This document shows positions 5,841-57,385 of a stretch of DNA of 58,693 nucleotides, piece after piece (position 1 is the first letter of the stretch; each line of letters starts with the position of its first letter). Made by a program: the position numbers and the translations under genes. The notes under the pieces are model-generated. The model was given only the letters and a program-made list of their open reading frames with translations, did no database searches and was not told the origin of the DNA. This DNA comes from an uncultured Clostridia bacterium (GTDB taxonomy: Bacteria > Bacillota > Clostridia > Christensenellales > Aristaeellaceae). The stretch lies in contig CALVTQ010000111.1 in NCBI GenBank assembly GCA_944362695.1, forward strand, positions 1 to 58,693. Direction: 5' to 3'.

Positions 5841-6085
5841 GAACCCGTCAGGTAACGCTTCGCTCCCTGACTACATTTGGGGAAAGGCTTCGCCTTTTTG
5901 GGGGTTACGCTAGGCTCTGCCCAGACCCGCAAGGGACGCTGTCCCAACCCCTGTGAGGGCTTTATCCGGTGAACCTTATAGTCGCGCCCTGCGGTCGCTC
6001 GTTAAGGTTCCCGACGCTCCGCCTGCCTTCATCCGCCACTGGCGGCGGCAGACTCCGGTCCCCTTGACCCCATGCGCGCTTCGCG
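5841..6085 (-). repeat. Dispersed 3' repeat R1, copy A
   Basis: A modular noncoding repeat lies immediately 3' of the sugar permease stop codon, in the same orientation as that gene. Read on the minus strand it runs: GCGAAGC-rich lead, GGTCAAGGGG, the M1 element, hairpins GGGAC-AGC-GTCCC and CTGGGC-AGA-GCCTAG, GCGTAACCCCC, GGCGAAGCC, GTAGTCAGGGAG, and GTTACCTGACGGGTTC. Copies B (43789-44011) and C (57217-57385) share these blocks. Coordinates are approximate. Bases 5677-5840 between the AEC terminator and this repeat hold T/G-rich sequence with no supportable gene. Confidence 0.8.
5966..6059 (-). repeat. M1 element, copy A (94 bp)
   Basis: This nested element starts ACCGGAG and ends CCGG when read on the minus strand. 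It contains a CTGCC...GGCAG stem enclosing the hairpin CCGCC-AGT-GGCGG, and a second long stem GGAACCTTA/TAAGGTTC. It is nearly identical to copy C (57244-57337). In copy B the second stem keeps pairing with different bases. Confidence 0.82.
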
Positions 6086-6101
6086 TCTGTATAAGAAGCT
6101 T

Positions 6102-6986
6102 TTAGCCCTTCACGGCGCCCGCGATGACGCCATCGATGATATACTTCTGGCAAGCCAGATACATGATGATAATCGGAATCACGGTAATCATGATACACGC
6201 CATCATCGGGCCCATCTCAACCCGTCCATAGCTTCCCCTGAAGTACTGAATCGCCATCGGGATCGTGCGGTAATGTTTGATATCGAGCACGAGCGTGGGC
6301 AGCAGGTAGTCATTCCACACCCACATGGTCTCCAGAATCGCGGTCGTGATCATCGTCGGCTTGAGGATCGGGAACACGACCTTGAAGAAGATCTGCACGG
6401 GATTACAGCCGTCGATCATCGCCGCTTCCTCGATCGCCACGGGCACGCTCTTCATGAAGCCCGTAAACATGAACACGGCGAGGCCCGCGCCGAACCCCAG
6501 ATACACGATGCAGATATTGAACGGCGTATTCAGCCGCAGCGTATCGGCGGTCTTGCTCAGCGTGAACATGACCATCTGGAACGGCACGACCATCGAGAAC
6601 ACGCACAGCAGATACATCGCCTTCGATATCGCGCTATTCACCCTCGTGATGTACCAGCCGCACATCGAGCAGCACAGCAGGATCAGCAGCACGGACGTGA
6701 TCGTGATCACCGCCGAATACGCGAACGAGCTCAAAAAGTTCATCTTCGTGACGCCGTGGATATAGTTATCCAGCCCCACGAACTTATCGCCCAGCGGCAG
6801 CTCGAACACGCTCGTCGTCGAGATCGCCGTCTCCAGCTTCAGCGAGTTGAGCAGGATCAGCAACACCGGGTACATCCACGCCACCGACAGCAGCGCCAGC
6901 AGCACCGACAGCAGCACGTCGACCACGCGCTTGGTGCCCGACACCGCGCCGTCGTGATACGTCTTTTTCGCGGTCTTCATCATCAC
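6102..6986 (-). CDS. Carbohydrate ABC transporter permease (MalG-like)
   Basis: This 294-residue CUT1-type permease has about six membrane segments. The cytoplasmic EAA loop (EEAAMIDGCNPVQIFFKVVF, near residues 185-205) docks the ATPase. The C-terminus IIDGVIAGAVKG is typical of MalG-type subunits. It is the last gene of the binding protein-permease-permease operon and overlaps the upstream permease by 4 bases. A GTG or the ATG right after it could be the start; AAGGAGG lies 7 bases before the GTG. No ATPase gene is in the cluster, so a shared MsmX-type ATPase elsewhere is likely. Confidence 0.95.
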   Translation of the reverse strand: MMMKTAKKTYHDGAVSGTKRVVDVLLSVLLALLSVAWMYPVLLILLNSLKLETAISTTSVFELPLGDKFVGLDNYIHGVTKMNFLSSFAYSAVITITSVLLILLCCSMCGWYITRVNSAISKAMYLLCVFSMVVPFQMVMFTLSKTADTLRLNTPFNICIVYLGFGAGLAVFMFTGFMKSVPVAIEEAAMIDGCNPVQIFFKVVFPILKPTMITTAILETMWVWNDYLLPTLVLDIKHYRTIPMAIQYFRGSYGRVEMGPMMACIMITVIPIIIMYLACQKYIIDGVIAGAVKG

Positions 6987-7834
6987 TGCTGCACCTCCTT
7001 ACGCCTCGTGAAGAACAGCTGGATCAGCGCAATCGCCACGACCAGCAGGAAGAACACGACCGCCTTCGCCTGGCCCACGCCCTTCCACACCGCGCCCGCG
7101 CGATCGAACACGGTATCATAGATATTCAGCGCGAGCATCTGGCTCGCCTTCGCCGGTTCGCCGCCCGTCAGCGACAGGTTCTGGTCAAACAACTTGAACG
7201 AGTTGGTCAGCGTCAGGAACGTACAGATCGTCACCGACGGCATGACCATCGGGATCTTCACCTTGAACAGCGTCTGCATGCTCGTCGCGCCGTCGATCGA
7301 CGCGGCCTCAAGCAGGTCGCCCGGCACATTCTGCAAGCCGGAGATGTAGATGACCATCATATAGCCGATCTGCTGCCAGCACATCAGGATGATGAGGCCC
7401 CAGAAGCCGTATCGGGCGTCCAGCGCGAGCAGCGGCAATCCGAGGTTGGTCAAAATGCCGTTGAGAAGAATCTGCCAGATATAGCCCAGCACGATGCCGC
7501 CGATCAGGTTGGGCAGGAAGAACACCGTGCGGTAGATGTTCGTGCCCTTCACGCCGCGGGTCAGCGCCAGCGCGAGCACGAACGCGATCACATTGATCAG
7601 GATCGTGGAGACGACCGTGAACGCCGCCGTGAACCAGAACGCGTCCACGAACGTCGGGTCGGCGAACACCTTTGCATAGTTGGAAAGGCCGACGAACGCC
7701 GTCTTTGACACCGTCGTGAACTTATGGAACGACAGATAGATGCCCCACAGGAAGGGGAAGATGAAGCCGATGAAGAACGCCGCCAGCGTCGGCAGCAGGA
7801 ACACCGGCCAGTATTTTTTGATTGCTTTCTCCAT
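6983..7834 (-). CDS. Carbohydrate ABC transporter permease (MalF-like)
   Basis: The 283-residue permease is the MalF-type partner. It has an N-terminal membrane segment, about six membrane spans in all, and the EAA loop LEAASIDGATSMQTLFKVKI near residues 170-190. With the MalG-like subunit it should form the channel for a sugar or oligosaccharide delivered by the binding protein encoded upstream. The 210-base gap to that gene contains a hairpin, which commonly lowers permease expression relative to the binding protein. The ATG follows an AAGGGGGC site. Confidence 0.95.
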   Translation of the reverse strand: MEKAIKKYWPVFLLPTLAAFFIGFIFPFLWGIYLSFHKFTTVSKTAFVGLSNYAKVFADPTFVDAFWFTAAFTVVSTILINVIAFVLALALTRGVKGTNIYRTVFFLPNLIGGIVLGYIWQILLNGILTNLGLPLLALDARYGFWGLIILMCWQQIGYMMVIYISGLQNVPGDLLEAASIDGATSMQTLFKVKIPMVMPSVTICTFLTLTNSFKLFDQNLSLTGGEPAKASQMLALNIYDTVFDRAGAVWKGVGQAKAVVFFLLVVAIALIQLFFTRRKEVQQ

Positions 7835-7990
7835 TCACAAGCCCCCTTATGCTCTGCAGATTCGATGCTTGATCGGCTGCTTATACGGATCTCATATAAA
7901 ACGGGCCGAATGTGCCGCAGATTTTTCGCTTTCGTTCAACGGAAAAGGCACAGCTCCCCGCTTTCATCAGCCCGGCGAGAGCAGGCTCGA

Positions 7991-8020
7991 AAGAAAAGGG
8001 ACGGGCGCAATGCCCGCCCC
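7991..8020 (-). terminator. Intra-operon attenuating hairpin after the binding-protein gene
   Basis: On the minus strand GGGGcGGGC pairs with GCCCGtCCC around a 5-base loop and is followed by TTTTCTT, 25 bases after the binding-protein stop. It probably allows partial read-through into the two permeases. Confidence 0.75.
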
Positions 8021-8044
8021 CTGTGGCGTTGATTTGAGCTATGC

Positions 8045-9313
8045 TTAGTGGCTCAGCGCATACTCGGTGGCCCAGCCATCGACGAACGCGGACACGACAG
8101 CGTCCCAATCGCCCGTGCCGGCAGCATAGGCGGTCAGCGCGGAACCGACGCCGTTCTTCCACTCCTCGGACGGGATGGACGGGAAGTTCCAGGAGACCGG
8201 CTCCTTGCCCGCAGCGGTCATCGCGGTGTCGATGGCGACCAGCGGGTTGGCGGAGGCGTACTCGCCGGTGAAGGTGTCAAACGGCACGACGAAGCCCATG
8301 TCCTGAGACATGCTCTTGCGGCCCTCGTCGGAGGTGATGCACCACTCCATGAAGGCGATGGTGGCGTCGATGTCCTCCTGATCGGCGGAGTTGTTGACGC
8401 ACCAGTAGTTCTCGATGCCGGTGCACAGGCCCTGATTCTCCTCGCCCTCGACGCCGATGTAGATCGGGATCATGGTCAGGTTCTCAGCGCCCAGCGCCTT
8501 GATGTCGTTCCACGCCCAGGTGCCGTTCTGATAGAACACGGCCTCGCCGTTCACGAACTCGGCCACGGCGTCATTGCCGGTCTTGCTCGCCAGCAGCGCG
8601 GGATCGCAGGTGGAATCGGTGATGTACAGATCCCAGATCTGCTTGTAGTTGTCCAGATACGTGCCCTTGATGGCGTCGGTGAAACCGATGCCGTCGGCCT
8701 TGTACTCATAGTAGATGGGCATGTTGGCCAGGTGGGTCTTGAAGCGCCAGTCGGAGCTGCCGTCCATGCCGGCGGAGGTGAAGGCGCCCTTGATGCCCAG
8801 CTCGTCCTTGCGGGCCTGCAGGTCGTCGGCGACTTCCTTCAGCTTGGCGAAGGAGTTGATGTCCTCGGCCTTGTAGCCGGCCTTCTCAAGGATGGTTTTG
8901 TTGGCGATGATGCCGTAGGTCTCGATGACGTAGCCGATGCCCTTGACCGTGCCGTCGTCGCCCTTGAGCGCGAAGGAATCGCTGGTCAGGTGCTCCATGA
9001 GCGCCGTGCCGGAGAGATCGTAGCAGTAGTCAACCCAGTTCGCCAGGCCGACCGGGCCGTTGACCTGGAACAGCGTCGGCGGATCGCTCTTCTCGATCTC
9101 GCTCATCAGCGTCTTCTCATAGTCGCCGGAGGCCGCGGTCACGACCGTCACCGGCACGCCGGTCTGCTCGGTGTAGACCTTGGCCAGCTCCTGCCACTGA
9201 GCATCCTGCTCGGGCTTGAAGTTGAGGTAGTAAACGGAGGCATCCGCACTCGCGGCGACAGCGAAGGTCACCATCAGGCAGATGGCCATCAGCAGGGCAG
9301 CACATTTCTTCAT
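8045..9313 (-). CDS. Extracellular sugar-binding protein of ABC transporter
   Basis: The 422-residue solute-binding protein (family 1) has a signal peptide (1 to about 23, ending VAASA) and then the two-lobed fold with motifs such as YYLNFKPEQ, FVNGEAVFYQNGTWAW and MEWCITSDEGR. It should capture a sugar outside the membrane and pass it to the two permeases. The signal peptide has no lipobox Cys, unlike most Gram-positive binding proteins, so how it stays at the cell is unclear. AAAGGAG precedes the ATG, and a consensus promoter lies about 105 bp upstream. Substrate cannot be predicted. Confidence 0.94.
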   Translation of the reverse strand: MKKCAALLMAICLMVTFAVAASADASVYYLNFKPEQDAQWQELAKVYTEQTGVPVTVVTAASGDYEKTLMSEIEKSDPPTLFQVNGPVGLANWVDYCYDLSGTALMEHLTSDSFALKGDDGTVKGIGYVIETYGIIANKTILEKAGYKAEDINSFAKLKEVADDLQARKDELGIKGAFTSAGMDGSSDWRFKTHLANMPIYYEYKADGIGFTDAIKGTYLDNYKQIWDLYITDSTCDPALLASKTGNDAVAEFVNGEAVFYQNGTWAWNDIKALGAENLTMIPIYIGVEGEENQGLCTGIENYWCVNNSADQEDIDATIAFMEWCITSDEGRKSMSQDMGFVVPFDTFTGEYASANPLVAIDTAMTAAGKEPVSWNFPSIPSEEWKNGVGSALTAYAAGTGDWDAVVSAFVDGWATEYALSH

Positions 9314-9418
9314 ACGGGAAAGCTCCTTTCTTTATTTTGAACGGGCATTCCAGCCCGCTCAGAACTTGTCCGGCAAGCAGCGAAACCCTCGTAAACATTC
9401 GCCACATTGCACAATACC

Positions 9419-9447
9419 ATTATAGATTCCATGAACGGTTTTGTCAA
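9419..9447 (-). promoter_or_regulatory. Promoter of the sugar ABC operon
   Basis: Minus strand TTGACA (9442-9447), 17-bp spacer, TATAAT (9419-9424), an exact consensus. A short palindrome ATCGTTCGAT lies just upstream near 9460-9470 and could be a regulator site. The rest of the 302-base gap (9314-9615) shows no gene that I can support. Confidence 0.9.
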
Positions 9448-9615
9448 CGATGAAATGATCGAACGATAAAATTTTATTCCATTGGTCAATATGCTTGCCA
9501 AACATATGCGTTTTGTGTGTATATATCGCGTCAATCTTTTCCGAAAACGACGGAAATCCGAACATTCGCCGCAAAACGGGTCGAAACATCCCGAAACGCC
9601 CGCGCCCTTCCCGCC

Positions 9616-10977
9616 TCATCCATCGTAAAAACCTATGGCAGCCGCCCGTTTCCGATCGTTCGGCCAGATACTTTTTGTGACGAGCAGGCAAATTCCAAGC
9701 GAAATCGCATCGGACACGCCCTGCGCCGCGATCAGCCCGGCAAGGCCGAACATCCGCGGCAGGATCGCCAGCAGCACGATGAGCACGTAGCCCTGCCTGC
9801 TCGCGCCCGTGATGCCCGCGCGCACGGTCATGCCCATCGCCTGCGTCAGCATGCCGCAGAGCACGACCGCCCCCTGCATGGGCAGCGCGATTCCCTGCAC
9901 GAGAAGCGCCGCCGCGCCGATGGATGCGACCTGTTCCCCCGCGCCGAACGCCAGCAGCACCCGCCGCGCAAGCACCGCCGTCCCCGCGCCGATGACCGTC
10001 AGCGACACGGCGAGCACGCGCATACAAAAAGCATATGCCTGCCGCACGCGATTCATGTCCCCCGCGCCGTAGCACACGCCGCACACCGGCGCAAATCCCT
10101 GCCCGAAGCCGATGATGCCCGAGGACAGCAGCGCCCCCGCGCGCACGGCCAGCCCGATGCCCGAGAGCGCCTCCCGCCCAAAGCGCGCCGCGCACGACGT
10201 CACCATCGCGCCGGACACGGCAAAAAGCCCCTGCCGCAAGAGCGTGGGCAGGCCGGAGCGCATGATCTCTTTGTATATGGAAAGGCTCGGCTTCCCCGGC
10301 ATGACCGACGGGCGCACGCCGGGCTGTTTCTTCCATATATACACGACGAGCGCCGCCAGCGTCGCGCCCTCGCGCACGAGCATGGCTATGCCCGCCGCCT
10401 GCGCGCCCATGTCCGTCGCCCACAGCAGCGCGGCCAGCACGCCGCACCCGCAGACCGCGCCCAGCGAGAACGCCCCGAGGTTCGCGAGCGTCATGCCCTG
10501 CGCGCGAAGGAGCGAGGAGAGCACGAGGCTCGCGCACATGACCGGCCCCGCCGCCAGCAGGCACCGCGCATAAGGCAGCGCTCCCTCCGGCACGCCGCCC
10601 TCCCCCGCCAGCAGCGCGAGCAGCGGCCCCGCGAGCATGAACGCGGGCAGGCACAGGGCCGCCGCGAGCACAACCGCCGTGAGCATGCCCTGCGTCGCGA
10701 CATCGCCCGCGCGCGCCGTGTCGTCTGCGCCGAGCATGCGGCTGACCGCCGAGCCCGCGCCCATGCCCATCGTGAAGCCCACCGCCTGAATCATCGTGAG
10801 GATCGGGAAGCACAGCGCGACGGCTGCGGTCGCCCCGCTCCCCCTGCGCGCGAGCAGAAGCGCATCGAGCAGCGTCCCCGCGCCGGTCGCGAGCATCGCC
10901 CCCATCGACGGCCCGGCCAAGGCCAGCGTGACGCGGCGCACATCGCCCGAAAGCGCATTTTTCGCTGGCACAGCCAT
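9616..10977 (-). CDS. MATE family efflux transporter
   Basis: This 453-residue integral membrane protein has about twelve membrane segments in two homologous halves. MATE features include the N-terminal LALAGPSMGAMLATGAGTLLD, a GMGAGSAVSRMLG block after helix 2, and RQGLFAVSGAMVTS opening the second half. Members export cationic drugs or metabolites by Na+ or H+ antiport, and the substrate is unknown. The start at MAVPAKN follows AAGGAGGG; an upstream in-frame ATG lies ahead of this site. The gene diverges from the ROK kinase gene, with a strong palindrome between them. Sequence is only distantly related to the second MATE protein in this window. Confidence 0.92.
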   Translation of the reverse strand: MAVPAKNALSGDVRRVTLALAGPSMGAMLATGAGTLLDALLLARRGSGATAAVALCFPILTMIQAVGFTMGMGAGSAVSRMLGADDTARAGDVATQGMLTAVVLAAALCLPAFMLAGPLLALLAGEGGVPEGALPYARCLLAAGPVMCASLVLSSLLRAQGMTLANLGAFSLGAVCGCGVLAALLWATDMGAQAAGIAMLVREGATLAALVVYIWKKQPGVRPSVMPGKPSLSIYKEIMRSGLPTLLRQGLFAVSGAMVTSCAARFGREALSGIGLAVRAGALLSSGIIGFGQGFAPVCGVCYGAGDMNRVRQAYAFCMRVLAVSLTVIGAGTAVLARRVLLAFGAGEQVASIGAAALLVQGIALPMQGAVVLCGMLTQAMGMTVRAGITGASRQGYVLIVLLAILPRMFGLAGLIAAQGVSDAISLGICLLVTKSIWPNDRKRAAAIGFYDG

Positions 10978-11033
10978 GCGAAATCCCTCCTTCTTGCGCA
11001 CCATGACGGGCCAGATTCCCGCGTCGCGGCAAT

Positions 11034-11051
11034 GCGGAATTGACGTTCCGC
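11034..11051. promoter_or_regulatory. Palindromic operator candidate between MATE and ROK genes
   Basis: GCGGAA-TTGACG-TTCCGC is a perfect 6-bp inverted repeat. Looser symmetry extends outward (GGCAATGCGGAA / TTCCGCCAATGCC). It lies in the divergent intergenic region, just upstream of the ROK -35 box. Confidence 0.6.
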
Positions 11052-11069
11052 CAATGCCGTGAAAACCGA

Positions 11070-11098
11070 TTGACAGCGGCCCGCCGTTGGTTTATCAT
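11070..11098 (+). promoter_or_regulatory. Promoter of the ROK kinase gene
   Basis: TTGACA (11070-11075), 17-bp spacer, TATCAT (11093-11098). Confidence 0.85.
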
Positions 11099-11186
11099 GG
11101 GATATGCGGAACCTATACTGGGGCTATTCTGCGCAAGGGCGCGCATGCTTATCCCGGCCACATTCCCAGAACAAGGAGGAAATATC

Positions 11187-12074
11187 ATGCTGATCGGAGC
11201 ATTGGAGGCGGGCGGCACCAAAATGGTCTGCTCCATCGGAACGCCCAGGGGCGGCGTGCTTCAGCGCGCGAGCTTCCCGACGCTGACGCCGGAGATCACG
11301 GTGCCTCAGATCGTCGATTTCATCAAAAAGTTTAACGTGGAGGCGCTGGGCATCGGCTCGTTCGGCCCGCTGGATCTCAACCCGAACTCCCCCACGTACG
11401 GCCATATCACCAAGACCCCCAAGAAGGATTGGGAGGGCTATCCGCTCATGCCGGAGCTCGCCCGCCAGCTCGGCGTCCCGACGATGATCGACACGGACGT
11501 CAACGCCGCGGCGCTCGCCGAATACAAGATGGGCGCGGGCATGGGCAAGGGCAGCCTGCTGTATGTCACCGTCGGCACGGGCATCGGCGGCGGCATCGTC
11601 GCGGGCGGCGAGATCGTCCACGGCCTCGTGCATCCCGAGCTGGGCCACATGATTCTCGCCCCGGAGGAGGGCGACCCCATGCCCGACGGCATCTGCCGCT
11701 TCCACAGGCATTGCCTCGAGGGTCTGGCCAGCGGCCCGGCCATCGAGAAGCGCTGGGGCCTGTCCGCCAAGCTGATGACCTACGACCATCCCGCGTGGGA
11801 GCTCGAGGCGACGTATCTGGCGCAGATGTGCGCCAACGCGACGATGATCCTCTCGCCGGAGGTCATCGTGCTCGGCGGCGGCGTCATGCAGCAGACGCAC
11901 CTGTTCCCCCGCATCCGGGAGAAGACGCTCGCGCTGCTGGGCGGCTACGTCGCCAGCGACAAGCTCACGCCCGAGGGCATCGACAGCTACATCGTCCCGC
12001 CCGCGCTGGGCATCAATTCCGGCGTGACGGGCGCGCTGCTGCTGGGCGCGCAGGCCATTGAGCAGCGGGCCTGA
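11187..12074 (+). CDS. ROK family fructokinase-type sugar kinase
   Basis: The 295-residue protein has the ROK kinase layout: phosphate loop EAGGTK at residues 7-12, second ATP segment VGTGIGGGIV, sugar-binding HPELGHM, and a CRFHRHC zinc motif followed by LEGLASGPAIEKRWG. This combination is typical of ScrK/GmuE-type fructokinases rather than DNA-binding ROK repressors, and no N-terminal helix-turn-helix is present. It likely phosphorylates fructose or a related sugar with ATP in the cytoplasm. The ATG follows AAGGAGG. The sugar ABC operon lies nearby, but no shared transcript is evident. Confidence 0.92.
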   Translation: MLIGALEAGGTKMVCSIGTPRGGVLQRASFPTLTPEITVPQIVDFIKKFNVEALGIGSFGPLDLNPNSPTYGHITKTPKKDWEGYPLMPELARQLGVPTMIDTDVNAAALAEYKMGAGMGKGSLLYVTVGTGIGGGIVAGGEIVHGLVHPELGHMILAPEEGDPMPDGICRFHRHCLEGLASGPAIEKRWGLSAKLMTYDHPAWELEATYLAQMCANATMILSPEVIVLGGGVMQQTHLFPRIREKTLALLGGYVASDKLTPEGIDSYIVPPALGINSGVTGALLLGAQAIEQRA

Positions 12075-12276
12075 GACGCGGCGGGCGCTGCGCATGCTGC
12101 GCGATGAGCTGCTCGCGCGCGGGGAAAGCACGCAGGGGCTGTATGTCCCGCGCGGCGAGGCGGGCATGGTGCGCATGATATCGGCGCTGCTTGACATGGG
12201 CGCGGGCGAGGGCGCAGACGAGGCGCTTCGCTCCAGGATCGCGTGGTTTGAGCGCGAATTTCGCCGCCGCGCATGA
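12058..12276 (+). CDS. Small hypothetical protein overlapping the ROK gene
   Basis: A 72-residue basic protein can be read from a TTG start that overlaps the kinase gene by 17 bases. An internal ATG at 12094 would give 60 residues. The sequence is helical and rich in Arg and Leu (LRDELLARG, IAWFEREFRRRA), with no recognised domain. No good ribosome binding site precedes the TTG, so translational coupling would be needed. It fills a stretch that would otherwise be empty. I do not recognise a family. Confidence 0.45.
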   Translation: MSSGPETRRALRMLRDELLARGESTQGLYVPRGEAGMVRMISALLDMGAGEGADEALRSRIAWFEREFRRRA

Positions 12277-12445
12277 GCCGGGAACGGCACACTTCCTGTT
12301 TTTTGACGCGCTTTTTCCGCGCTACATTCGCCCCCGCAATCCACTTATTCCGTTTCACAGCCGTTCGCGTTCATTCGCTTGAAATCGGATGTTGTAAATG
12401 TTACAATCTTTACATCCCCATTTTATAGGAAAGGAAGTGAACGGC

Positions 12446-13603: not shown

Positions 13604-13620
13604 ACGGCGGGAGAAAGCAT

Positions 13621-16065: not shown

Positions 16066-16071
16066 AAACAG

Positions 16072-29771: not shown

Positions 29772-30090
29772 GGGAGAAGCAACGCAACTTTACATATGGT
29801 GAAACTTTTCCGCTCTGGTGCAGCTTTGCCTTTAAGGGTAACGCTCCACGCCGTAACCCCGGTAGCCCCTATTGTCCCTAGTAGGGGGAACATTGTGACG
29901 TTAAGCGAAGCGAGCCCTCTCCGTCAGCCTGCGGCTGACACCTCTCCCAAAGGGAGAGGCAAGTATAGCTTTTTAGTATTGAAACTTTTTCGTTCTGGCG
30001 CTGCTTTGCATTTATCATCATTATCTACCGCGAGCGCAGCAGCCCTCTCCGTCAGCCTTCGCCTGCCACCTCGCGAGACCAGCCCTGTAT
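29772..30090. repeat. Composite repeat region R3
   Basis: Gene-free sequence with duplicated pieces: GAAACTTTTCCGCTCTGG near 29801 and GAAACTTTTTCGTTCTGG near 29981, and CCCTCTCCGTCAGCC near 29914 and 30043. The first of the latter continues into the hairpins AGCCTGCGGCT and CTCTCCCAAAGGGAGAG. The CTCTCC...GGAGAG type resembles palindromic repeats common in gut Clostridia genomes, from general familiarity only. With R2 and the adjoining spacers it accounts for most of the 740-base gap between the feo operon and the VanY gene. Confidence 0.7.
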
Positions 30091-43788: not shown

Positions 43789-44011
43789 GAACCCGTCAGG
43801 TAACGCTTCGCATTCCGGGAAACTTTATAGTCGCGCAAGCGCTCCTTAAAGTTTCCGACGCTCCGCCTGCCTTCATCCGCCACTGGCGGCGGCAGGCTCC
43901 GGTCCCTGACTACTTTTTTGGAGATTGGCTTCGCCATTTTTGGGGTTACGCTGGGGCAGCCCCAGACCCCGCAAGGGGATGATCCCCTTGACCCCGGTTC
44001 GCTTCGCGCGC
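43789..44011 (-). repeat. Dispersed 3' repeat R1, copy B
   Basis: It lies directly 3' of galM in galM orientation. It has the R1 blocks of copy A, but the M1 element sits elsewhere: between GTAGTCAGGG and AATGCGAAGCGTTACC instead of after GGTCAAGGGG. The unoccupied position reads GGTCAAGGGG-ATCATCCCC. Its hairpins GGGGAT-C-ATCCCC and CTGGGG-CTG-CCCCAG keep pairing with bases different from copy A. Confidence 0.82.
43815..43903 (-). repeat. M1 element, copy B (89 bp)
   Basis: Read on the minus strand it starts ACCGGAG and ends TTTCCCGG. The first half is almost identical to copies A and C, including CCGCC-AGT-GGCGG. The second stem is GGAAACTTTA/TAAAGTTTCC, against GGAACCTTA/TAAGGTTCC in the others, so both sides changed together. 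Its apical loop is the shorter GCGC-TT-GCGC. Confidence 0.83.
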
Positions 44012-49219: not shown

Positions 49220-49281
49220 GCGCGTCCCTCCCGAGTCGTTTTTTCCCATTATACCACACGGCGCGGGAAAAATCAGCATGC

Positions 49282-49313
49282 AAAAAGCGCGCCCGTGTCA
49301 TGCACGAACGCGC
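49282..49313 (-). terminator. Terminator of the YczE-like gene
   Basis: Minus strand GCGCG-TT-CGTG...CACG-GG-CGCGC followed by TTTTTGC, 9 bases after the stop codon. Confidence 0.85.
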
Positions 49314-49321
49314 CTCGCCGT

Positions 49322-49969: not shown

Positions 49970-50008
49970 AATCGTATTCCTCATTTTTCTTTGTGTCCTA
50001 TGGATATG

Positions 50009-51379
50009 TTACTCGCCGTGGCGCGTTTGAAGCCGCCCGCGCAGCACGCGGTCGATCGCCAGCCTGTACACGCATATGCTCGCCGCCGGGCCGACGATGT
50101 CGGAGATCGGCTCGGCATAAAACGCCGCGCGCGCCCCGAATATCGCAGGCAGGATGAACAGCGCCGCGAAGTAGACCGCCTTGCGGAAGAACGACAGCGC
50201 GAACGAGAGCCGCACCTGTCCCAGCGCCGTGAAGCCGTCCACGATCTCGTACTGCACGCCCAGCGGGATGATCGCCAGCGTGCACACGTGTATCGCCCAG
50301 AGCGACGGCTCCGCCGCCAGCGGGTCGCTTGTAAACAGACGCACGAACAGCGGCCCGGCGGCGTGCGAGAGCAGCATCAGTACCGCCGCATATCCCGCGC
50401 ACAGGATCATGATGATCTTCTGCGCCGATTTGACGCGCTCCATCTTCATCGCGCCGTAGTTAAACGCCAAAATTGGTTGGGTTCCTCCGGAGATTCCGCC
50501 CATGGGCATGGTGACCACGAGCATGAAGCTCTGCGCAATGGTCGCGCAGGTGATGAGCGCGTCGCCCTGCTCCGGCCCGCCGTAGGCCTTGAGCACCGCG
50601 TTCATGGCGATGATCATGGCGTTGTCGATGGCGATGATGGAAAACGGCGAAAAGCCCAGCGTCAGCACGCGGCCCGCGATGTCCGCATGCGGCCTGCCGG
50701 GTTTCAATCGCACCGGCACGCTTCTGCCCATCAAAAAGATCACCGCGCCCGCCGCGCTCGCCATTTGCGAGAGCACCGTCGCCAGCGCCGCGCCGCGCAC
50801 GCCCATGCCCAGCGCGAAGATGAACACCGGGTCAAGCGCGATGTTGAGGACAGCGCCCAGCATCACAAGCCCCATCGCCACGCGCGCAAAGCCCTGCGCC
50901 ACGATGAATTGGTTGAGCCCCGTCGCCAGCAGCGCGAAGACCGTGCCCGCGATGTAGACCGAAAAATACGCCTCGGCGTAGGGGTACGTCGCCTCGCTCA
51001 CGCCGAACACGCGCAGCATCGGCCCGCGCAGCAGATACCCGCCCACGGTCAAAACCGCCGCTAAGCCCAGCAGCAGCGACAGACAGGTCGAGAGAATCCG
51101 CCCGGCCTCGCTATCGCGCCCCTCGCCCATGCGCAGGCTCATCAGCGGCGCACCGCCGACCGCGACCCAGAACGCCGCCGACCCGATCATCGTGAGCACA
51201 GGCCCGCACACGCCCACGCCCGCCAGCGCCAGCGAGCCCGCGCCGGGGATGTGGCCGATGTACATGCGGTCGACGATGGAATAGAGCACCGAGACGAACT
51301 GCGCCAGCATCGACGGCGCGGCCATGCGCACCACGAGACGCCGGATGCCGTCCCGCCCCAGATCGTTTTCCAGCTTCAC
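50009..51379 (-). CDS. MATE family efflux transporter (second)
   Basis: The 456-residue protein has about twelve membrane helices and MATE signatures LVVRMAAPSMLAQFVSVLYS, IVDRMYIGHIPG, GGAPLMSLRMGEG and, in the second half, FSIIAIDNAMIIAMNAVLK. It is related to NorM/DinF-type drug exporters. I choose GTG (VKLEND) about 7 bases after AGGGA; an upstream ATG adding ten residues is possible. It differs from the first MATE protein in this window, so the two are not a recent duplication. The last helices end in a basic tail. Confidence 0.92.
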   Translation of the reverse strand: MKLENDLGRDGIRRLVVRMAAPSMLAQFVSVLYSIVDRMYIGHIPGAGSLALAGVGVCGPVLTMIGSAAFWVAVGGAPLMSLRMGEGRDSEAGRILSTCLSLLLGLAAVLTVGGYLLRGPMLRVFGVSEATYPYAEAYFSVYIAGTVFALLATGLNQFIVAQGFARVAMGLVMLGAVLNIALDPVFIFALGMGVRGAALATVLSQMASAAGAVIFLMGRSVPVRLKPGRPHADIAGRVLTLGFSPFSIIAIDNAMIIAMNAVLKAYGGPEQGDALITCATIAQSFMLVVTMPMGGISGGTQPILAFNYGAMKMERVKSAQKIIMILCAGYAAVLMLLSHAAGPLFVRLFTSDPLAAEPSLWAIHVCTLAIIPLGVQYEIVDGFTALGQVRLSFALSFFRKAVYFAALFILPAIFGARAAFYAEPISDIVGPAASICVYRLAIDRVLRGRLQTRHGE

Positions 51380-51594
51380 AACATTCCCTGACCTTTCGGC
51401 TAAACCCATTTTTGCGATGCTTACTATATCGCAGGGCGCGTGTGCTGTCAAGCCGATTTTCCGCGCAGATTTTCCCAACCGGCGCGGTGCGAAATTCCCA
51501 TGTTTACGGCGAATCCTGTAAACCCCTTTCGGGCAGAATACGCATATCCTGCGTTAAATTTGCGTTCAGGCGGCCCCTCGCGCGCAAATGGGGG

Positions 51595-51623
51595 TTGACA
51601 AGGCGGCAAAAACGCGCTAATGT
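51595..51623 (+). promoter_or_regulatory. Promoter of the flavodiiron gene
   Basis: TTGACA (51595-51600), 17-bp spacer, TAATGT (51618-51623). Confidence 0.75.
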
Positions 51624-51664
51624 GCAATATGGCAAATCGCTTGTTTTAGAAAGGATGAATGACG

Positions 51665-52825
51665 ATGGAAATCGCAAAGGATATCCGCTATATCGGCGTG
51701 AACGATCATGAGGTCGACCTCTTTGAGGGACAGTACGTTGTGCCCAACGGCATGTCCTATAATTCTTACGTGATTCTCGGCGAAAAGGTCGCCGTCATGG
51801 ATACCGCCGACGCGCACTTCGGCGACGAATGGATGGCCAATCTCGAGGCTGCGCTCGCGGGCCGCACGCCGGACTACCTCGTCGTGCACCACATGGAGCC
51901 GGATCACTCCGCCAACATCGCGCGCTTCATGGAGAAATACCCCGCCGCGCAGGTCGCCGCCAGCGCCAAGGCGTTCGCGATGATGAAGAATTTCTTCGGC
52001 GACGACTTCGCCGCCCGCCGCGTGACCCTCGCCGAGGGCAGCGAGCTTAATCTGGGCAATCACACGCTCAAGTTCATCGCCGCGCCGATGGTGCATTGGC
52101 CGGAGGTCGTCATGAGCTACGACACGGCGACGAAGACCGTCTTCTCCGCCGACGCGTTCGGCAAGTTCGGCGCGCTGGACGTCGAGGATGAGGACGGCTG
52201 GGCGTGCGAGGCGAGGCGCTATTACATGGGCATCGTCGGCAAGTACGGCGTGCAGGTGCAGGGCGTGCTGGTCAAGCTCGCCGGGCTTGAGATCGAGCGC
52301 ATCTGCCCGCTCCACGGCCCGGTGCTCACGGAGAACCTTTCCTATTACATTGACCTGTATAAGACCTGGAGCAGCTACGAGCCGGAGGACAGGGGCGTGA
52401 CCATCGCCGTCGCCTCGATCTACGGCCACACGATGGAGGCCGCAAAGCTCCTCGCCGAGCGCCTCAAGGCGAAGGGCTGCGAGAAGGTCTCCGTGTTCGA
52501 CCTCGCGCGCGACGATATGGCCGAGGCCGTCGAGGACGCCTTCCGCTATGACCGCCTCGTGCTCGCCAGCAGCACCTACAACGCCGACATGTTCCCGTGC
52601 ATGAAGGCCTTCCTGCACGCGCTGACCGAGCGCAATTTCCAGAAGCGCACCGTCGCGTTCATGGAGAACGGCAGCTGGGCGCCGATGTCGGGCAAGGCCA
52701 TGCGCGCCATGATCGAGGGCTGCAAGAACGTCATCGTCTGCGAAAACGCCGTCAAGATCAATTCCGCGCTCGCCGAGGACAGCCGCGCCCAGATCGAGGC
52801 GCTGGCCGGCGAGCTGACCGCCTGA
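51665..52825 (+). CDS. fprA: Flavodiiron protein (FprA-type)
   Basis: The 386-residue protein joins a metallo-beta-lactamase-fold diiron domain (about 1-245) to a flavodoxin domain (about 250-386; ASIYGHTMEAAK, ASSTYNADMFP, NGSWAPMSGKAM). Diiron ligands are visible as HHMEPDHS (His76, Glu78, Asp80, His81), the later VHWPE, SADAFG and LHGPV. It reduces O2 to water or NO to N2O with electrons from rubredoxin, protecting an anaerobe. I choose the second ATG, about 9 bases after AAAGGA. It has its own promoter and terminator. The rubredoxin is encoded 5 kb upstream. Confidence 0.96.
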   Translation: MEIAKDIRYIGVNDHEVDLFEGQYVVPNGMSYNSYVILGEKVAVMDTADAHFGDEWMANLEAALAGRTPDYLVVHHMEPDHSANIARFMEKYPAAQVAASAKAFAMMKNFFGDDFAARRVTLAEGSELNLGNHTLKFIAAPMVHWPEVVMSYDTATKTVFSADAFGKFGALDVEDEDGWACEARRYYMGIVGKYGVQVQGVLVKLAGLEIERICPLHGPVLTENLSYYIDLYKTWSSYEPEDRGVTIAVASIYGHTMEAAKLLAERLKAKGCEKVSVFDLARDDMAEAVEDAFRYDRLVLASSTYNADMFPCMKAFLHALTERNFQKRTVAFMENGSWAPMSGKAMRAMIEGCKNVIVCENAVKINSALAEDSRAQIEALAGELTA

Positions 52826-52846
52826 TCGGAGCAAAAACACATATCC

Positions 52847-52878
52847 GCCGCAGGGACACATACGCCCTGCGGCTTTTT
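52847..52878 (+). terminator. Terminator of the flavodiiron gene
   Basis: GCCGCAGGG and CCCTGCGGC form a perfect 9-bp stem followed by five T. Confidence 0.93.
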
Positions 52879-52973
52879 GATGCATATTGTCATTGACACC
52901 CGCCGCGCATCCCGATATAATGAAGCCAAAGAAGCCATATATTTCCGTCACCCCCCGAAAGGAGATGCACGGC

Positions 52974-54305
52974 ATGAAGAAAATGCTGACCCTGATCGCG
53001 CTGTTCGCGGCCATCTGTCTGGCGTTCGGCGCATGCGCGGAGAGCGAGCGGCCTGCGGACGCCAGGACGCCGTATTGCCGCAACGAGGCACATTGGGACG
53101 GCGACGGCCTTGACCACTATCGCCCCCAATCCTGCTGGACGACCGGCCATTTTAACTGCGACGGCATGAACCACGAGAAAGCCCCGTGCAAGCTGCACCG
53201 CCACTACAACTGCGATGGCCGCGAGCACCTGAGCGCCAGCTGTGGCGCGCCGGGCCATTTCACGTGCGACCGCAAGGAGCACGCGCCCGCGGCCTGCGGC
53301 ATCGCCGGGCATTGCGTCAGCGACGATCTCAAGCACACGCTCGCCTCCTGCGGCCTGCATTACAGATGCGAGGGCGGCAAGCACGGCGCGGCGAGCTGCG
53401 GCATCGAGGGCCACACGGTCTGCGACGGCCTGACGCACGAGCGCGCGGTCTGCGGCAAGGCGCGCCACTACGCCTGCGACGGTCTGACGCATGAGACCGC
53501 CGCCTGCGGCCTCGCCCGCCATTGCGTCTCCGACGGCCTTGATCACACGCCGGCGGCCTGCGGCACGGAGGGCCATTATAACTGCGACGAGCGCAAGCAC
53601 GTGCCCGCGGCCTGCGGCATCGCCGGGCATTACGCCTGCGAGCCGGGGCGGCATACCGGCAAGGTCATCAGCGGCTACTGCAACGCCGTCCCCAAGCACG
53701 TCGTCTGCGAGGGCAACCCCGAGCATTACTGCGACCCGGCCTACGGCGGCTGCGGCAAGACGTATGCCTGCTCCCGCTCCAATGCGCATACGGCGTGCAG
53801 GATGTGCGGCCTGCTGTGGTGCGACCGCTCGCTCGGCGCGCATAAGACACCCTGCGACGTCCCGGAGCACAGGCCCTGCGTCTACACGCTCAACGGCAAG
53901 GAATACAACATCGAGGAGCACAGCACGACGTGCGAGCTGTGCGGCGACCTCAAGTGCGCCCGCGAAGCCCACGGCCTCGGCGTGTGCGTGAGCATCTGCG
54001 AGGCCTGCGGCGGCCCGGAGCTCTACGGGTATAACCACTTCAACGTCGATTGCGAGCACTACTGGTGCACGACGCCCGGCCCGCACGGCGTGTGGTGCAA
54101 CGCCTGCGAAGCGTATGTCTGCGAACCGGCATGCATGCATGTGGCGACCGACGAGCTGGTGTTCTACTATGCGCCCGAAGCCGCCGAGCTCAAGCTCAAG
54201 ACGCTCAAGCCGCTGCCCGCGCAGCCCGTGAGCGTGTATGATCTGCTGCGCATGAAGGAGGACCCGTCGCTGCCGATGTATCCCCTGCGCTATCCCGTCC
54301 AGTGA
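52974..54305 (+). CDS. Exported Cys/His-rich tandem-repeat protein
   Basis: The 443-residue protein starts with a signal peptide (MKKMLTLIALFAAICLAF, then GAC, so either a lipoprotein or type I cut). Residues about 58-230 hold ten tandem units of 18 residues with the pattern (G/R)HxxCDxxxHxxAxCGxx, giving regularly spaced Cys and His. The rest (to about 385) has paired Cys knuckles such as CRMCGLLWC, CELCGDLKC and CNACEAYVC. The C-terminal 50 residues lack Cys. The likely role is metal binding or a disulfide-rich surface rod; I know no named family. AAAGGAG precedes the ATG. It is flanked by terminators, so it stands alone. Confidence 0.9.
   Translation: MKKMLTLIALFAAICLAFGACAESERPADARTPYCRNEAHWDGDGLDHYRPQSCWTTGHFNCDGMNHEKAPCKLHRHYNCDGREHLSASCGAPGHFTCDRKEHAPAACGIAGHCVSDDLKHTLASCGLHYRCEGGKHGAASCGIEGHTVCDGLTHERAVCGKARHYACDGLTHETAACGLARHCVSDGLDHTPAACGTEGHYNCDERKHVPAACGIAGHYACEPGRHTGKVISGYCNAVPKHVVCEGNPEHYCDPAYGGCGKTYACSRSNAHTACRMCGLLWCDRSLGAHKTPCDVPEHRPCVYTLNGKEYNIEEHSTTCELCGDLKCAREAHGLGVCVSICEACGGPELYGYNHFNVDCEHYWCTTPGPHGVWCNACEAYVCEPACMHVATDELVFYYAPEAAELKLKTLKPLPAQPVSVYDLLRMKEDPSLPMYPLRYPVQ
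53145..53665 (+). repeat. Ten 54-bp units coding the Cys/His repeat
   Basis: The in-frame 54-base units are degenerate at the DNA level but share GCGACGGC and GCCTGCGGC cores. Two units (near 53310 and 53520) have HCVSD, with the first Cys moved two residues, in place of HxxCD; the fifth unit lacks the leading Gly-His. The spread of changes suggests an old array under selection on the protein. Confidence 0.85.
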
Positions 54306-54317
54306 ACCGGTCACACA

Positions 54318-54349
54318 GCCCCTTTCCCGCGCGGAGAGGGGCTTTTTTT
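54318..54349 (+). terminator. Terminator of the Cys/His repeat gene
   Basis: GCCCCTTTC pairs with GAGAGGGGC, followed by seven T. Confidence 0.92.
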
Positions 54350-54364
54350 CATATGTATGCATAG

Positions 54365-54397
54365 AAAAAGCCCGCCCCGCAACTTGCCCGGAGCGGG
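54365..54397 (-). terminator. Terminator of the glycosyltransferase gene
   Basis: Minus strand CCCGCTCCGG and CGGGGCGGGC-type arms around a 7- to 8-base loop, followed by TTTTTC, about 12 bases after the stop codon. Confidence 0.85.
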
Positions 54398-54409
54398 TCG
54401 TATTGCCTG

Positions 54410-55219
54410 TCACGGCAGGTCCTTGGCCACGGCGACCAGATATGAATAAATCTGAAGCTTGTAGCGCTCGTAGAGGCCCAAATCCATGTAGAGCTTGCGG
54501 TAGTAGCGAAAGAGCGACGCCTTGGCGGAGAGCACCTTCGCAGGCGAGACCGCCGTGGAGAGCGACTTCTTCTTGCGGCGCTGGTAGTAGTAAACCGGCG
54601 TGCGCATCGAGCAGAAGCGCTCGGCGTAGCTGATGTATTCCAGATTGAACAGCAGATCCTCCGACCACGCGAATTCCTCGTTGCAGCGGATGCCGTGCTC
54701 CATGATGATGTCGCGCCGGTAGAGCTTGTTCCACATGACGCCGAAGTAGAAGCTCGCGGGCTCCTCCATCAGGTGGCGCGCGAACTGCGCCTTGTCCATC
54801 GTCGTGTCCGGCGGCAGGAAGCCGAAGACGTGAACGCTGCCGTCCGCGGGCACCTGGCAGTAGTGGCAGACGAGCAGGTCGCTTTCCGTCTCCTCCATGC
54901 GCTCGACCATCAGGCGCGTGGCGTTGACGTCGAGATAGTCGTCCGCATCCACGAATTGCAGATACTTGCCCGAGGCGCGCTCGATGGCGACATTGCGCGT
55001 GCCGGAAACGCCCGTGTTCTCCTTGTCGATGAGCACGAAGCGCTTGTCAAGGCGCGTGTACATGCGGCAGATCTCCGGGCTCGAGTCGCTGGAACCGTCG
55101 TTGACGAGCAGCACCTCGATGTTCTGATAGCGCTGGCGCTTGATCGACTCCAGACACGGCACAAGGTCAATCGCCGCATTGTAAATCGGCACGATGATGG
55201 ATACGAGCGGACTGTCCAT
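54410..55219 (-). CDS. Family 2 glycosyltransferase
   Basis: The 269-residue protein has the GT-A fold start VSIIVPIYNAAIDLVPCLES, the nucleotide-sugar segment VLLVNDGSSDSSPEIC, the NTGVSGTRNVAIERASG loop and the DxD motif DADD (VDADDYLD). It should move a sugar from a nucleotide donor to a surface polysaccharide or lipid; the acceptor is unknown. No membrane helix is present, so it acts at the inner face. GAAAGGAAG precedes the ATG, about 10 bases away. No other polysaccharide genes are adjacent. Confidence 0.95.
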   Translation of the reverse strand: MDSPLVSIIVPIYNAAIDLVPCLESIKRQRYQNIEVLLVNDGSSDSSPEICRMYTRLDKRFVLIDKENTGVSGTRNVAIERASGKYLQFVDADDYLDVNATRLMVERMEETESDLLVCHYCQVPADGSVHVFGFLPPDTTMDKAQFARHLMEEPASFYFGVMWNKLYRRDIIMEHGIRCNEEFAWSEDLLFNLEYISYAERFCSMRTPVYYYQRRKKKSLSTAVSPAKVLSAKASLFRYYRKLYMDLGLYERYKLQIYSYLVAVAKDLP

Positions 55220-55402
55220 GCGTTCACTTCCTTTCGCGTCGGATTGATTATAGCATAATTCGACAGGGATTGCAAACATACATCGTAATAAATGACCGAA
55301 ATCGGGCCGACATTCTGTTTTTAAGCAGAAAATACTGCTCATTTTGCGCACGCGCCCGCCGCAGGCAGCCGTTTCCGCCGCCAAAAAAAAGCATGGCGGC
55401 GT

Positions 55403-55431
55403 TTGACAAAAGCGGCGCGCGGATGTATGAT
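55403..55431 (+). promoter_or_regulatory. Promoter of the tandem transaminase operon
   Basis: TTGACA (55403-55408), 17-bp spacer, TATGAT (55426-55431), about 28 bp before the start. Confidence 0.85.
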
Positions 55432-55459
55432 AGGGGCATCAAAAGAGAGGAGTATGGCC

Positions 55460-56323
55460 GTGAAGAATATCGCGTATTATAACGGCAGGATCGCCGCCAT
55501 TGAGGATATGATGATCCCGATGAACGACCGCGCGTGCTACTTCGCCGACGGCGTGTACGACGCCATGTTCACCGTGAACCACGTGCCGCTGTCGCTTGAT
55601 GACCACCTCGCCCGGTTCTATCGCTCTGCACGGCGCATCGACATCGAGATTCCGATGCCCTATGACGAGCTGCGCGCGATGGTTGTGGATTTCTGTAAAC
55701 GGGTCGATAGCCCCGACGCGATGGCCTATGTGCAGGTGAGCCGGGGCGTGGGCATGCGCAATCACCCGTATAAGGGCGCGCAGAGCGGCCCGAGCCTGTG
55801 GGTGTGGGTCAAGCCGGACGGCCTCGACCCGATGATGAGGGAATATGCCTGCATCACGGCGGAGGATACGCGCTATCTGATGTGCGACGTGAAGACGATC
55901 AACCTGCTGCCCAGCGTCATGTACGCCCAGCGCGCCGAGGAAGCGGGCTGCGATGAGACGATTCTGCATCGCGGCGAGCGCGTGACCGAATGTGCGCACA
56001 GCAATGTGCATATTCTAAAGGACGGCACGTTCATCACTGCGCCGTGCGATAACCTGATTTTGCCCGGCATCACGAGGGCGCACCGCATCGCCCAGTGCAA
56101 GGAAATGGGCATCCCGGTGGAGGAAAGGCCGTTCACCGTGAGCGAGATGATGGACGCCGACGAGATCTTCTTTACGAGCGCGAGCGCGCTTTGCTGCCGC
56201 GTGACGATGATCGACGGAAAGCGCGTGGGCGGCAGGGACACCGCGCTCATCCGTAAAATCCAGCAGGCCGCATGGGACGAGGCGATTGCCGAGGCGGGCA
56301 TCGCGCCGGTTCCCTTCAAATAA
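55460..56323 (+). CDS. dat: D-amino acid transaminase-like, class IV (first copy)
   Basis: The 287-residue PLP enzyme matches the class IV fold, closest in pattern to D-amino acid transaminase: NDRACYFADGVYDAMF, RGVGMRNHPYKG, the catalytic Lys in DVKTINLLPSVMYAQ, and the PLP-binding TECAHSNVHI. It likely makes D-Glu or D-Ala for peptidoglycan from 2-oxo acids. I choose GTG at 55460, since it gives the VKNIAYYNG start seen in the paralogue, and the ATG six bases upstream abuts AGGAGT. The second copy begins 30 bases after this stop, in the same operon. Confidence 0.9.
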   Translation: MKNIAYYNGRIAAIEDMMIPMNDRACYFADGVYDAMFTVNHVPLSLDDHLARFYRSARRIDIEIPMPYDELRAMVVDFCKRVDSPDAMAYVQVSRGVGMRNHPYKGAQSGPSLWVWVKPDGLDPMMREYACITAEDTRYLMCDVKTINLLPSVMYAQRAEEAGCDETILHRGERVTECAHSNVHILKDGTFITAPCDNLILPGITRAHRIAQCKEMGIPVEERPFTVSEMMDADEIFFTSASALCCRVTMIDGKRVGGRDTALIRKIQQAAWDEAIAEAGIAPVPFK

Positions 56324-56353
56324 CGAATTATGACCGAAAGGCGGAATGGGAAG

Positions 56354-57205
56354 ATGAAGAATATCGCGTATTACAACGGAAAGACCGGCCCGATCGAGGA
56401 AATGACCGTGCCGATGAACGACCGCGCGTGCTACTTCGGCGACGGCGTGTATGACGCGACGTGCGTGGTCAACCATGTGCCGATGGCGTTTGACGACCAT
56501 ATCGACCGCATCTACCGCAGCGCGAAGATGATCGACATCGACATCCCGATGGAAAAGGCCGAGATGAAGCGCATTTTGCAGGGGCTCGTCGATCAGGTCG
56601 AGGGCGATTGCCATATGCTGTATTGGCAGGTGACGCGCGGCGTGGGCATGCGCAATCACCCGTACAAGGGCGCGCAGAGCGGCCCGAGCCTGTGGGCGTT
56701 CGTCAAGCCGCAGGTGATGCGCGATGTGTTCGGCGCGTATAAGTGCGTGACCGTGGAGGATACGCGCTTCCTCCATTGCAATATCAAGACGATCAACCTG
56801 CTGCCCGCCGTGATGGCGAATCAGAAGGCCGAGGCCGCCGGATGCGACGAGGCGATCTTCCATCGCGGCGAGCGCGTGACCGAGTGCTCGCACAGCAATG
56901 TGCACATCATCACGAACGGCACGCTGAAGACCGCGCCCGCCGATAACCTGATCCTGCCGGGCATCACGCGCGCGCATATCCTCAAGATCTGCGAGAAGGT
57001 CGGGATTCCGGTCGTGGAGGCGCCGTTCACGATCGAGGAAATGATGCGCGCCGATGAGGTGTTCTTCTCCAGCTCCAGCGCACTGACGTGCAGGATTAAG
57101 GAGATCGACGGCAAGCCGGTCGGGATGAAGGATGAGAAGACGTTTGCCATGATCCGTGACGCGTATCAGGCAGAGCTGGAAGCCGAGTGCGGCAAGCGTA
57201 AATAA
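56354..57205 (+). CDS. dat: D-amino acid transaminase-like, class IV (second copy)
   Basis: The 283-residue paralogue keeps all active-site parts: RACYFGDGVYDATC, RGVGMRNHPYKG, the Lys in NIKTINLLPAVMANQ and TECSHSNVHI. The two genes are clearly tandem duplicates but have diverged over most of their length, with different substrate-side loops (LSLDDHLARF against MAFDDHIDRI). The ATG giving MKNIAYYNG is preceded by a weak GGGAAG, so coupling with the first gene is likely. Function may be split between D-Ala and another D-amino acid, by inference. R1 copy C follows the stop codon. Confidence 0.9.
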   Translation: MKNIAYYNGKTGPIEEMTVPMNDRACYFGDGVYDATCVVNHVPMAFDDHIDRIYRSAKMIDIDIPMEKAEMKRILQGLVDQVEGDCHMLYWQVTRGVGMRNHPYKGAQSGPSLWAFVKPQVMRDVFGAYKCVTVEDTRFLHCNIKTINLLPAVMANQKAEAAGCDEAIFHRGERVTECSHSNVHIITNGTLKTAPADNLILPGITRAHILKICEKVGIPVVEAPFTIEEMMRADEVFFSSSSALTCRIKEIDGKPVGMKDEKTFAMIRDAYQAELEAECGKRK

Positions 57206-57216
57206 GCCGCTTTAGA

Positions 57217-57385
57217 GGCGCGAAGCGAAGCAGGGTCAAGGGGACCGGAGCCTGCCGCCGCCAGTGGCGGATGAAGGCAGGCGGAGCGTCGGGAACCTTA
57301 ACGAGCGACCGAAGGGCGCGACTATAAGGTTCCCCGGATCAGCGTCCCTTGTAGGGTTTGGGGCAAAGCCCCAACGTAACCCCCG
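57217..57385 (+). repeat. Dispersed 3' repeat R1, copy C
   Basis: It follows the second transaminase gene by 12 bases in the same orientation. Order: GCGCGAAGCGAAGC, GGTCAAGGGG, M1, ATCAGCGTCCC, the hairpin TTGGGGC-AAA-GCCCCAA, GTAACCCCC. The right part of R1 (GGCGAAGCC, GTAGTCAGGG, GTTACCTGACGGG) is missing, so this copy is truncated. The hairpin is the counterpart of CTGGGG-CTG-CCCCAG in copy B. Confidence 0.82.
57244..57337 (+). repeat. M1 element, copy C (94 bp)
   Basis: It starts ACCGGAGCC and ends TTCCCCGG. It is inserted at the same point as copy A (after GGTCAAGGGG). Only a few bases differ from copy A, including C/A in the apical loop. The stem GGGAACCTTA pairs with TAAGGTTCCC without mismatch. 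Confidence 0.83.

Follow-up and report, generated by a model that had tools for sequence, protein, structure and literature searches.

M1, a small two-hairpin element with signs of mobility as a folded single strand in gut Clostridia

In elements of the IS200/IS605 type (Y1, HUH), each end is marked by a subterminal hairpin, and the target is left unduplicated on insertion. REPINs, in turn, are pairs of inverted repetitive extragenic palindromes (REPs). GTAG and CGTC REPs are described, in the available portion of a REP survey, as palindromes of 20–40 bp with a terminal GTAG or CGTC tag, the CGTC type having no known transposase (PMC3733652); the main text of that survey, as available, contains neither Firmicutes nor Clostridi as a word. 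Here, we analyze M1, a non-coding element of ~95 nt found in a contig of 58,693 nt (CALVTQ010000111.1, assembly GCA_944362695.1; "the window" below means this whole stretch) from an uncultured Clostridia bacterium of the Aristaeellaceae. One strand of M1 folds into two adjacent hairpins followed by a 4-nt tail, and the mobility of this conserved folded single strand is highly probable. What is new, among the known small structured non-autonomous mobile elements, is the M1 family itself.

An earlier note on this DNA had placed three copies of M1 in the window, and direct reading, alignment, and a covariance model (89.9 to 99.9 bits) all find them there: counted from the GGG ahead of the insertion through to the terminal A, copies A, B, and C occupy 5965-6062 (-), 43814-43906 (-), and 57241-57338 (+), each directly behind an open reading frame (ORF) on the same strand (Table 1). 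The larger repeat that hosts them, R1, is filled at two different points, and each point has its empty counterpart, as the note had proposed: GGTCAAGGGG/ATCATCCCC is unbroken in the R1 of copy B, and GTAGTCAGGG/AGCGAAGCG is unbroken in copy A (the slash marks the junction). Copy identity, together with the covariation described below, rules out chance as the source of the copies, and the proposed mobility of a non-coding stretch of ~95 nt is supported by copies at unlike sites and by these reciprocal empty sites. The note had also allowed that only these three copies might exist, or that the flanks might align without gaps. Instead, the host genome (a 2.93-Mb assembly of 174 contigs, 83% complete) carries at least 42 copies according to the covariance model "R2" (a model name; 150 of 1811 candidates scored) and 49 BLAST matches, fragments counted, to a query of copy C with its flanks, and uninterrupted versions of the flanks exist.

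Table 1. Coordinates of M1 copies, their empty counterparts, and the structural parts of copy C. Positions are those of the window, except in the last line.
Feature	Position	Strand	Preceding GGG or junction	Description
M1 copy A	5965-6059	-	GGG at 6060-6062	Inserted stretch within R1; follows GGTCAAGGGG
M1 copy B	43814-43903	-	GGG at 43904-43906	Inserted stretch within R1; follows GTAGTCAGGG; right-hairpin loop CTTG
M1 copy C	57244-57338	+	GGG at 57241-57243	Inserted stretch within R1; follows GGTCAAGGGG
Empty site in R1 of copy B	43970-43999	-	43984/43983	GGTCAAGGGG/ATCATCCCC; counterpart of filled sites A and C
Empty site in R1 of copy A	5855-5876	-	5865/5864	GTAGTCAGGG/AGCGAAGCG; counterpart of filled site B
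Empty repeat R2	29939-29958	-	29946/29945	CTCTCCCTTTGGG/AGAGGTG; M1 at the same point in seven tabulated copies elsewhere in the genome
Left hairpin, copy C	57243-57290	+		Short basal helix (with the G directly preceding the inserted stretch), GRA/GRA internal loop (3x3), helix of 7 bp, internal loop (1x5), helix of 5 bp, triloop AGT
Right hairpin, copy C	57291-57334	+		Lower helix of 10 bp, tandem G.A region GAG/CGAC (conserved), bulged A, apical stem (variable)
3' tail, copy C	57335-57338	+		CGGA
Nested ~55-nt hairpins, host genome	L247:1669-1819 and 2456-2605; L248:1696-1847; L030			Four places

The junctions were tabulated for 31 copies of the host genome that have flanks and intact ends. 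GGG precedes 30 of these (starts of the ACCGGAG type) and GGA one, while the 3' end reads CGGA in 28 and CGGG in three. Their left contexts comprise 13 different nine-base sequences, several of them variants of one R1 site, and by our own reading represent about six unlike sites. The cleanest empty/filled pair is provided by a second repeat, R2, which is empty in the window (CTCTCCCTTTGGG/AGAGGTG) and filled elsewhere (CTCTCCCTCTGGG–M1–AGAGGTG); the left half of R2 precedes M1 in seven tabulated copies, and the right half follows unchanged in five of the seven. A pair from R1 reads CCAGGGG/CAATGTCCC when empty and CAAGGGG–M1–CAATGTCCC when filled, and other pairs have one extra base at the right junction or lack two G on the left. 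Because the pairs differ by such junction bases, the ends of M1 are known only to 1-2 nt; the copies lie where the earlier note had located them, with borders uncertain by this amount. No target duplication is seen in any pair compared (R2, R1, and R1 of the congener G021). The orientation of M1 is fixed relative to the target, and by our own reading the element mostly occupies the 5' arm of palindromic intergenic repeats, after a G-run. A single genome has M1 at several points of R1, within R2, and in further contexts, alongside uninterrupted versions of both repeats. Many G021 copies have a nearly identical R1 flank; some repeated R1+M1 contexts may be copied composites, so that not every copy would be an independent insertion.

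The gene adjoining copy C has an orthologue in 14 of the 15 congeners searched. Among the resulting 15 loci, the model finds M1 in one, that of the host genome, and in none of the 14 congener loci; nor is R1, a chain of hairpins at window positions 57200-57550, seen by eye in the 290 bases after the 14 congener orthologues (L359-L372). M1 and R1 beside this gene therefore appear to have arrived in the present lineage, and R1 looks lineage-specific.

The base before M1 pairs with an internal base of the element, and the two covary (G-C in 22 and C-G in three of 25 copies in the congener alignment). We first read this as an IS608-like target-guide code, in which GGG goes with GTC, and GGC with GTG or GCG. 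This reading is weakened by two sets of sites: in G005 copies with a C, that C is missing from the comparable empty sites (AAAGGG/AACTGG and the empty site of R5), and G021 has preceding bases of both types within one repeat context. Given these sites, the covarying base may be borne by the element itself.

Some M1-like copies outside the genus have settings of their own. In three genera, such a copy is flanked by tRNA fragments, an inverted piece on one side and a duplicate of the 3' part on the other (L098, L085, and L083); in two cases (L098 and L083), the arrangement directly follows an intact tRNA gene. In family f10, several copies (L090, L099, and L104) lie between long inverted repeats, for example, GCCGCTTTTTTCTCT and AGAGAAAAAAGCGGC, an arrangement resembling a large hairpin with M1 in its loop. 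Within the window, tandem paralogous genes at 55445-56299 and 56330-57202, which by recognition alone we take to be aminotransferase-like, encode proteins that are 60% identical, and the two also stand side by side in several congeners.

The earlier note had described a hairpin kept by compensatory change, including a second-stem exchange of GGAACCTTA/TAAGGTTCC for GGAAACTTTA/TAAAGTTTCC. That exchange is real and the hairpin is present; the structure, however, is larger than claimed, comprising two hairpins that both covary. In a MAFFT alignment of 25 congener copies, made with no structure information, a 34-pair model leaves 98.2% of cells paired, a percentage biased towards the model, as the structure was drawn by eye from the same 25 sequences. 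Two-sided changes are stronger evidence: they occur at 18 of the 34 pairs and in 60 cells, against 11.8 in shuffled and at most 13 in slid controls. In agreement, 90.1% of cells pair across 74 diverse copies, and two-sided changes number 603 cells, compared with 174 in shuffled and no more than 135 in slid controls, although this alignment was made to the model and hence leans towards the structure. Of 209 distinct copies caught by a motif scan, 194 have AGT or TGT as the three-base loop of the left hairpin, and the apical stem of the right hairpin varies freely together with its partner. As the stems covary while the loops stay fixed, whatever moves or uses M1 must read it as a folded single strand. 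Among paired cells, G.T is more frequent than A.C (32 versus 5 in the 25-copy alignment, with 21 of the 32 in one column; 34 versus 10 in the 74-copy alignment, which holds 216 other mismatched cells), and therefore the structure works on the strand shown. A further feature of the host genome is a hairpin of ~55 nt, resembling the M1 left hairpin and nested in the terminal loop of an M1 left hairpin at four places (Table 1).

M1 is found well beyond the host genome. BLAST matches are present in 17 of 41 genomes, namely the host and 16 of 24 congeners, two of which (G006 and G012) have one weak match each that barely extends beyond the left hairpin loop region; none is present in 16 genomes from other families of the order. 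A structure model built from the 25 congener copies (named "R1") detects relatives in 10 of 200 genomes of the order, host included, spanning four families, and the same architecture recurs in families other than the host's. A degenerate pattern scan of genome contigs yields at least 111 matching stretches; among the 80 matches listed, the titles read Clostridia, Ruminococcus, Oscillospiraceae, and the like, one being that of the isolate Ruminococcus bromii 5AMG. The viral contig collection gave no match to the one degenerate pattern used. With covariance model "R2", we count 51 copies in G021, 50 in G011, 28 in G179, 22 in G067, 12 in G105, seven in R. bromii, six each in G085 and G101, and three in G123, and 43 of 120 genomes from the family of R. 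bromii match at E<=0.001. Each lineage has its own distinct M1 subfamily, and the M1 of our host is best explained as the branch, local to this lineage, of a family of small non-autonomous mobile elements that is widespread in Clostridia. Three contig ends of G000 (L016, L017, and L019) carry head-to-tail M1-M1 joints, so tandem arrays of M1 probably broke the assembly there.

No Rfam 15 covariance model gives a match overlapping M1 in 16 loci at E up to 1, and none of four M1 core motifs was found in the literature searched. The accessible parts of the literature on R. bromii REPs, Firmicutes and Clostridia RAYTs, interspersed repeats, clostridial structured RNA, and single-strand transposition hold no description of M1, and the part of PMC10589994 at hand has no bearing on it. 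M1 is thus an abundant, structurally conserved, and mobile family without an Rfam match that extends across several families of gut Clostridia.

The reading we favor, with a probability of about 0.5, is that M1 is a new non-autonomous mobile family whose folded single strand is moved in trans, by a logic most like that of IS200/IS605. The folded strand would be the substrate of a trans-acting enzyme, which would recognize the conserved loops and bulges rather than the letters of the stems, cut at two positions at the foot of M1, and rejoin the strand on the 3' side of a G-run. With hairpins at both ends, a junction at a G-run, and no duplication, M1 fits best with IS200/IS605-like transposition of single-strand DNA. 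We claim no membership in IS200/IS605, REPs, or MITEs (miniature inverted-repeat transposable elements), since for each of them a defining feature that we tested was not found. Knowing the enzyme would either widen the range of single-strand transposition to hosts that lack an obvious transposase for it or reveal RNA-mediated spread.

Several results weigh against this reading. Pfam Y1_Tnp has no match in the host genome (83% complete) or in the M1-bearing G011 (96% complete), G021, G179, G085, and G067 (94-97%), metagenome-assembled genomes (MAGs) that may be incomplete; G011, G021, G179, and G067 are both M1-rich and nearly complete. Overall, the domain is matched in 15 of 31 genomes of a relatives set and in 7 of 15 of a second set; within the genus, Y1 matches of any strength occur in 10 of 17 M1-matching genomes (host included) versus 5 of 8 without M1, and there is thus no Y1-M1 link. 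A RAYT profile built from five proteins gives no match in the host genome and is matched in 6 of 34 genomes (E<=0.01), among M1-bearing congeners only in G003, G009, and G019, where G019 has a stop codon. M1 is absent from 77 Y1/RAYT loci (47 + 30) with flanks of up to 1.5 kb, which represent ~70 distinct places, as seven were counted twice, and include several weak Y1 matches; a search of these loci for separated M1 halves returned one chance-like half-motif only. Half of the R. bromii-family genomes that hold at least three M1 copies (E<=1e-6), 9 of 18, have no RAYT (E<=1e-9). The last point concerns the fold: the basal helix of the left hairpin is predicted by RNA energy rules and missed by DNA rules. 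For copy C, the minimum-free-energy RNA fold (z=-3.5) matches the covarying model exactly in the lower right helix and in the left hairpin with its basal helix, and resembles it in the apical part, whereas the predicted DNA fold (z=-2.7) contains both hairpins without that helix.

The profile, neighborhood, and half-element scans lend no support to a resident RAYT or Y1 enzyme as mobiliser; the one exception is the R. bromii-family association discussed below. The earlier note had inferred that M1 is akin to REPs or MITEs, with its transposase encoded elsewhere, and had proposed mapping the flanks for a RAYT-type enzyme; M1 lacks features that define REPs and MITEs, and no Y1 or RAYT transposase is matched in the host genome or in several M1-rich relatives. 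IS110 shows no association with M1 in the family of R. bromii (M1 in 3 of 17 IS110 genomes versus 40 of 103 others, p=0.11). An autonomous parent with separated ends was sought among part of the half matches; the eight stretches checked have no long insert between the halves and are decayed or divergent M1 copies, or copies split by a small hairpin.

The fold prediction favors a different course, in which M1 is a small structured RNA that is reverse-transcribed or reverse-spliced at G-runs by a host reverse transcriptase or other machinery. The 3x3 GRA/GRA and tandem G.A motifs of M1 are typical of RNA, its commonest apical loop, G(CUUG)C (33 of 205), is a stable RNA tetraloop, and the position of all three window copies behind same-strand ORFs points the same way. 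However, C(GNA)G triloops, which are stable in DNA, are common as well, the loop counts come from related copies and are hence not independent, and duplication-free insertion is equally expected for single-strand DNA. On balance, an RNA intermediate comes next after the favored reading, though we consider it unlikely. Its boldest form, in which M1 is itself a transposing RNA of ~95 nt whose entry into G-run hairpins relies on reverse splicing or reverse transcription and needs no dedicated DNA transposase, is more doubtful still; if true, M1 would, to our knowledge, be the smallest RNA-mobilised element known in bacteria.

It is similarly improbable that M1 is an unusual two-hairpin REP moved specifically by RAYT, with the absence of RAYT reflecting loss or incomplete assembly. 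MAGs often miss mobile genes, and RAYT and M1 do co-occur in the family of R. bromii, where M1 is present in 18 of 27 RAYT genomes (E<=1e-9) versus 25 of 93 others (p=2.4e-4, uncorrected for phylogeny; p from 9e-5 to 1.6e-3 at other cut-offs). In addition, 12 of the 14 Ruminococcus-type copies listed begin with GTAG, given as the tag of RAYT REPs in the portion of PMC3733652 considered. However, none of the 77 Y1/RAYT loci carries M1, and most M1-rich genomes of the host's own genus are without a RAYT match. RAYT genes also hold a different REP: the GTAG REP pattern occurs in 11 of 20 RAYT loci scanned in the family of R. bromii, and at least six of the genes (L328, L330, L331, L334, L340, and L345) carry a facing pair of 23-nt GTAG-type REPs of their own within the coding region, inside the match span. 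Five of these six matches have no stop codon, while L328 has one; in a related RAYT from another family (L122), the corresponding peptide is VGANCVRP. The association itself may be indirect: by our own reading, three Ruminococcus-type copies of one genome (L142, L146, and L158) lie inside GTAG REPs, after GTAGGG, and M1 inside the REPs of RAYT could by itself give rise to the association. Only 1 of 20 M1 loci in this family has an intact REP of that pattern in its flanks, however, which leaves the indirect cause likewise unproven.

Passive carriage, in which an immobile M1 travels with duplicated or converted composites (R1, R2), would suit the nearly identical R1 flanks in G021 and the 14 congener loci in which no R1 is seen by eye, but is very unlikely given the many insertion points and uninterrupted repeats within one genome and the presence of M1 inside M1 in two G021 copies (L272 and L279, neither perfectly clean).

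Set against the described systems, M1 resembles classical MITEs in being small, non-coding, repeated, and mobile, but it has no target duplication in the compared pairs and no long terminal inverted repeats, the similarity of its ends being limited to ACCGGAG versus TCCGGGG. Unlike the paired inverted REPs of REPINs, the two hairpins of M1 have different sequences, neither being an inverted copy of the other. What M1 has in common with REPINs is the character of short mobile DNA linked to hairpins (PMC3116915, as far as available). With GTAG and CGTC REPs, as covered in the available portion of PMC3733652, M1 shares its nature as an intergenic palindromic repeat in many copies, some of them within other palindromes. 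It differs in its length of ~95-115 nt, in consisting of two unlike tandem hairpins rather than a single palindrome of 20-40 bp, in its conserved internal loops and bulges with covarying stems, and in that neither tag, GTAG or CGTC, is the rule across the family, the copies of the host genome beginning with ACCGGAG or close variants; unlike GTAG REPs, it flanks no RAYT gene in the loci scanned. M1 is also a concrete case of the question that CGTC REPs pose in that portion of the survey, namely how palindromic repeats without a dedicated transposase multiply (PMC3733652). From IS200/IS605, finally, M1 departs in its G-run motif and directly adjacent hairpins, in the lack of a Y1 match in the host genome and several M1-rich relatives, and in that no autonomous parent was found; it is alike in its hairpins near both ends, its strand-specific structure, the lack of an internal gene, and insertion 3' of a short motif without target duplication, here GGG before 30 of 31 copies.

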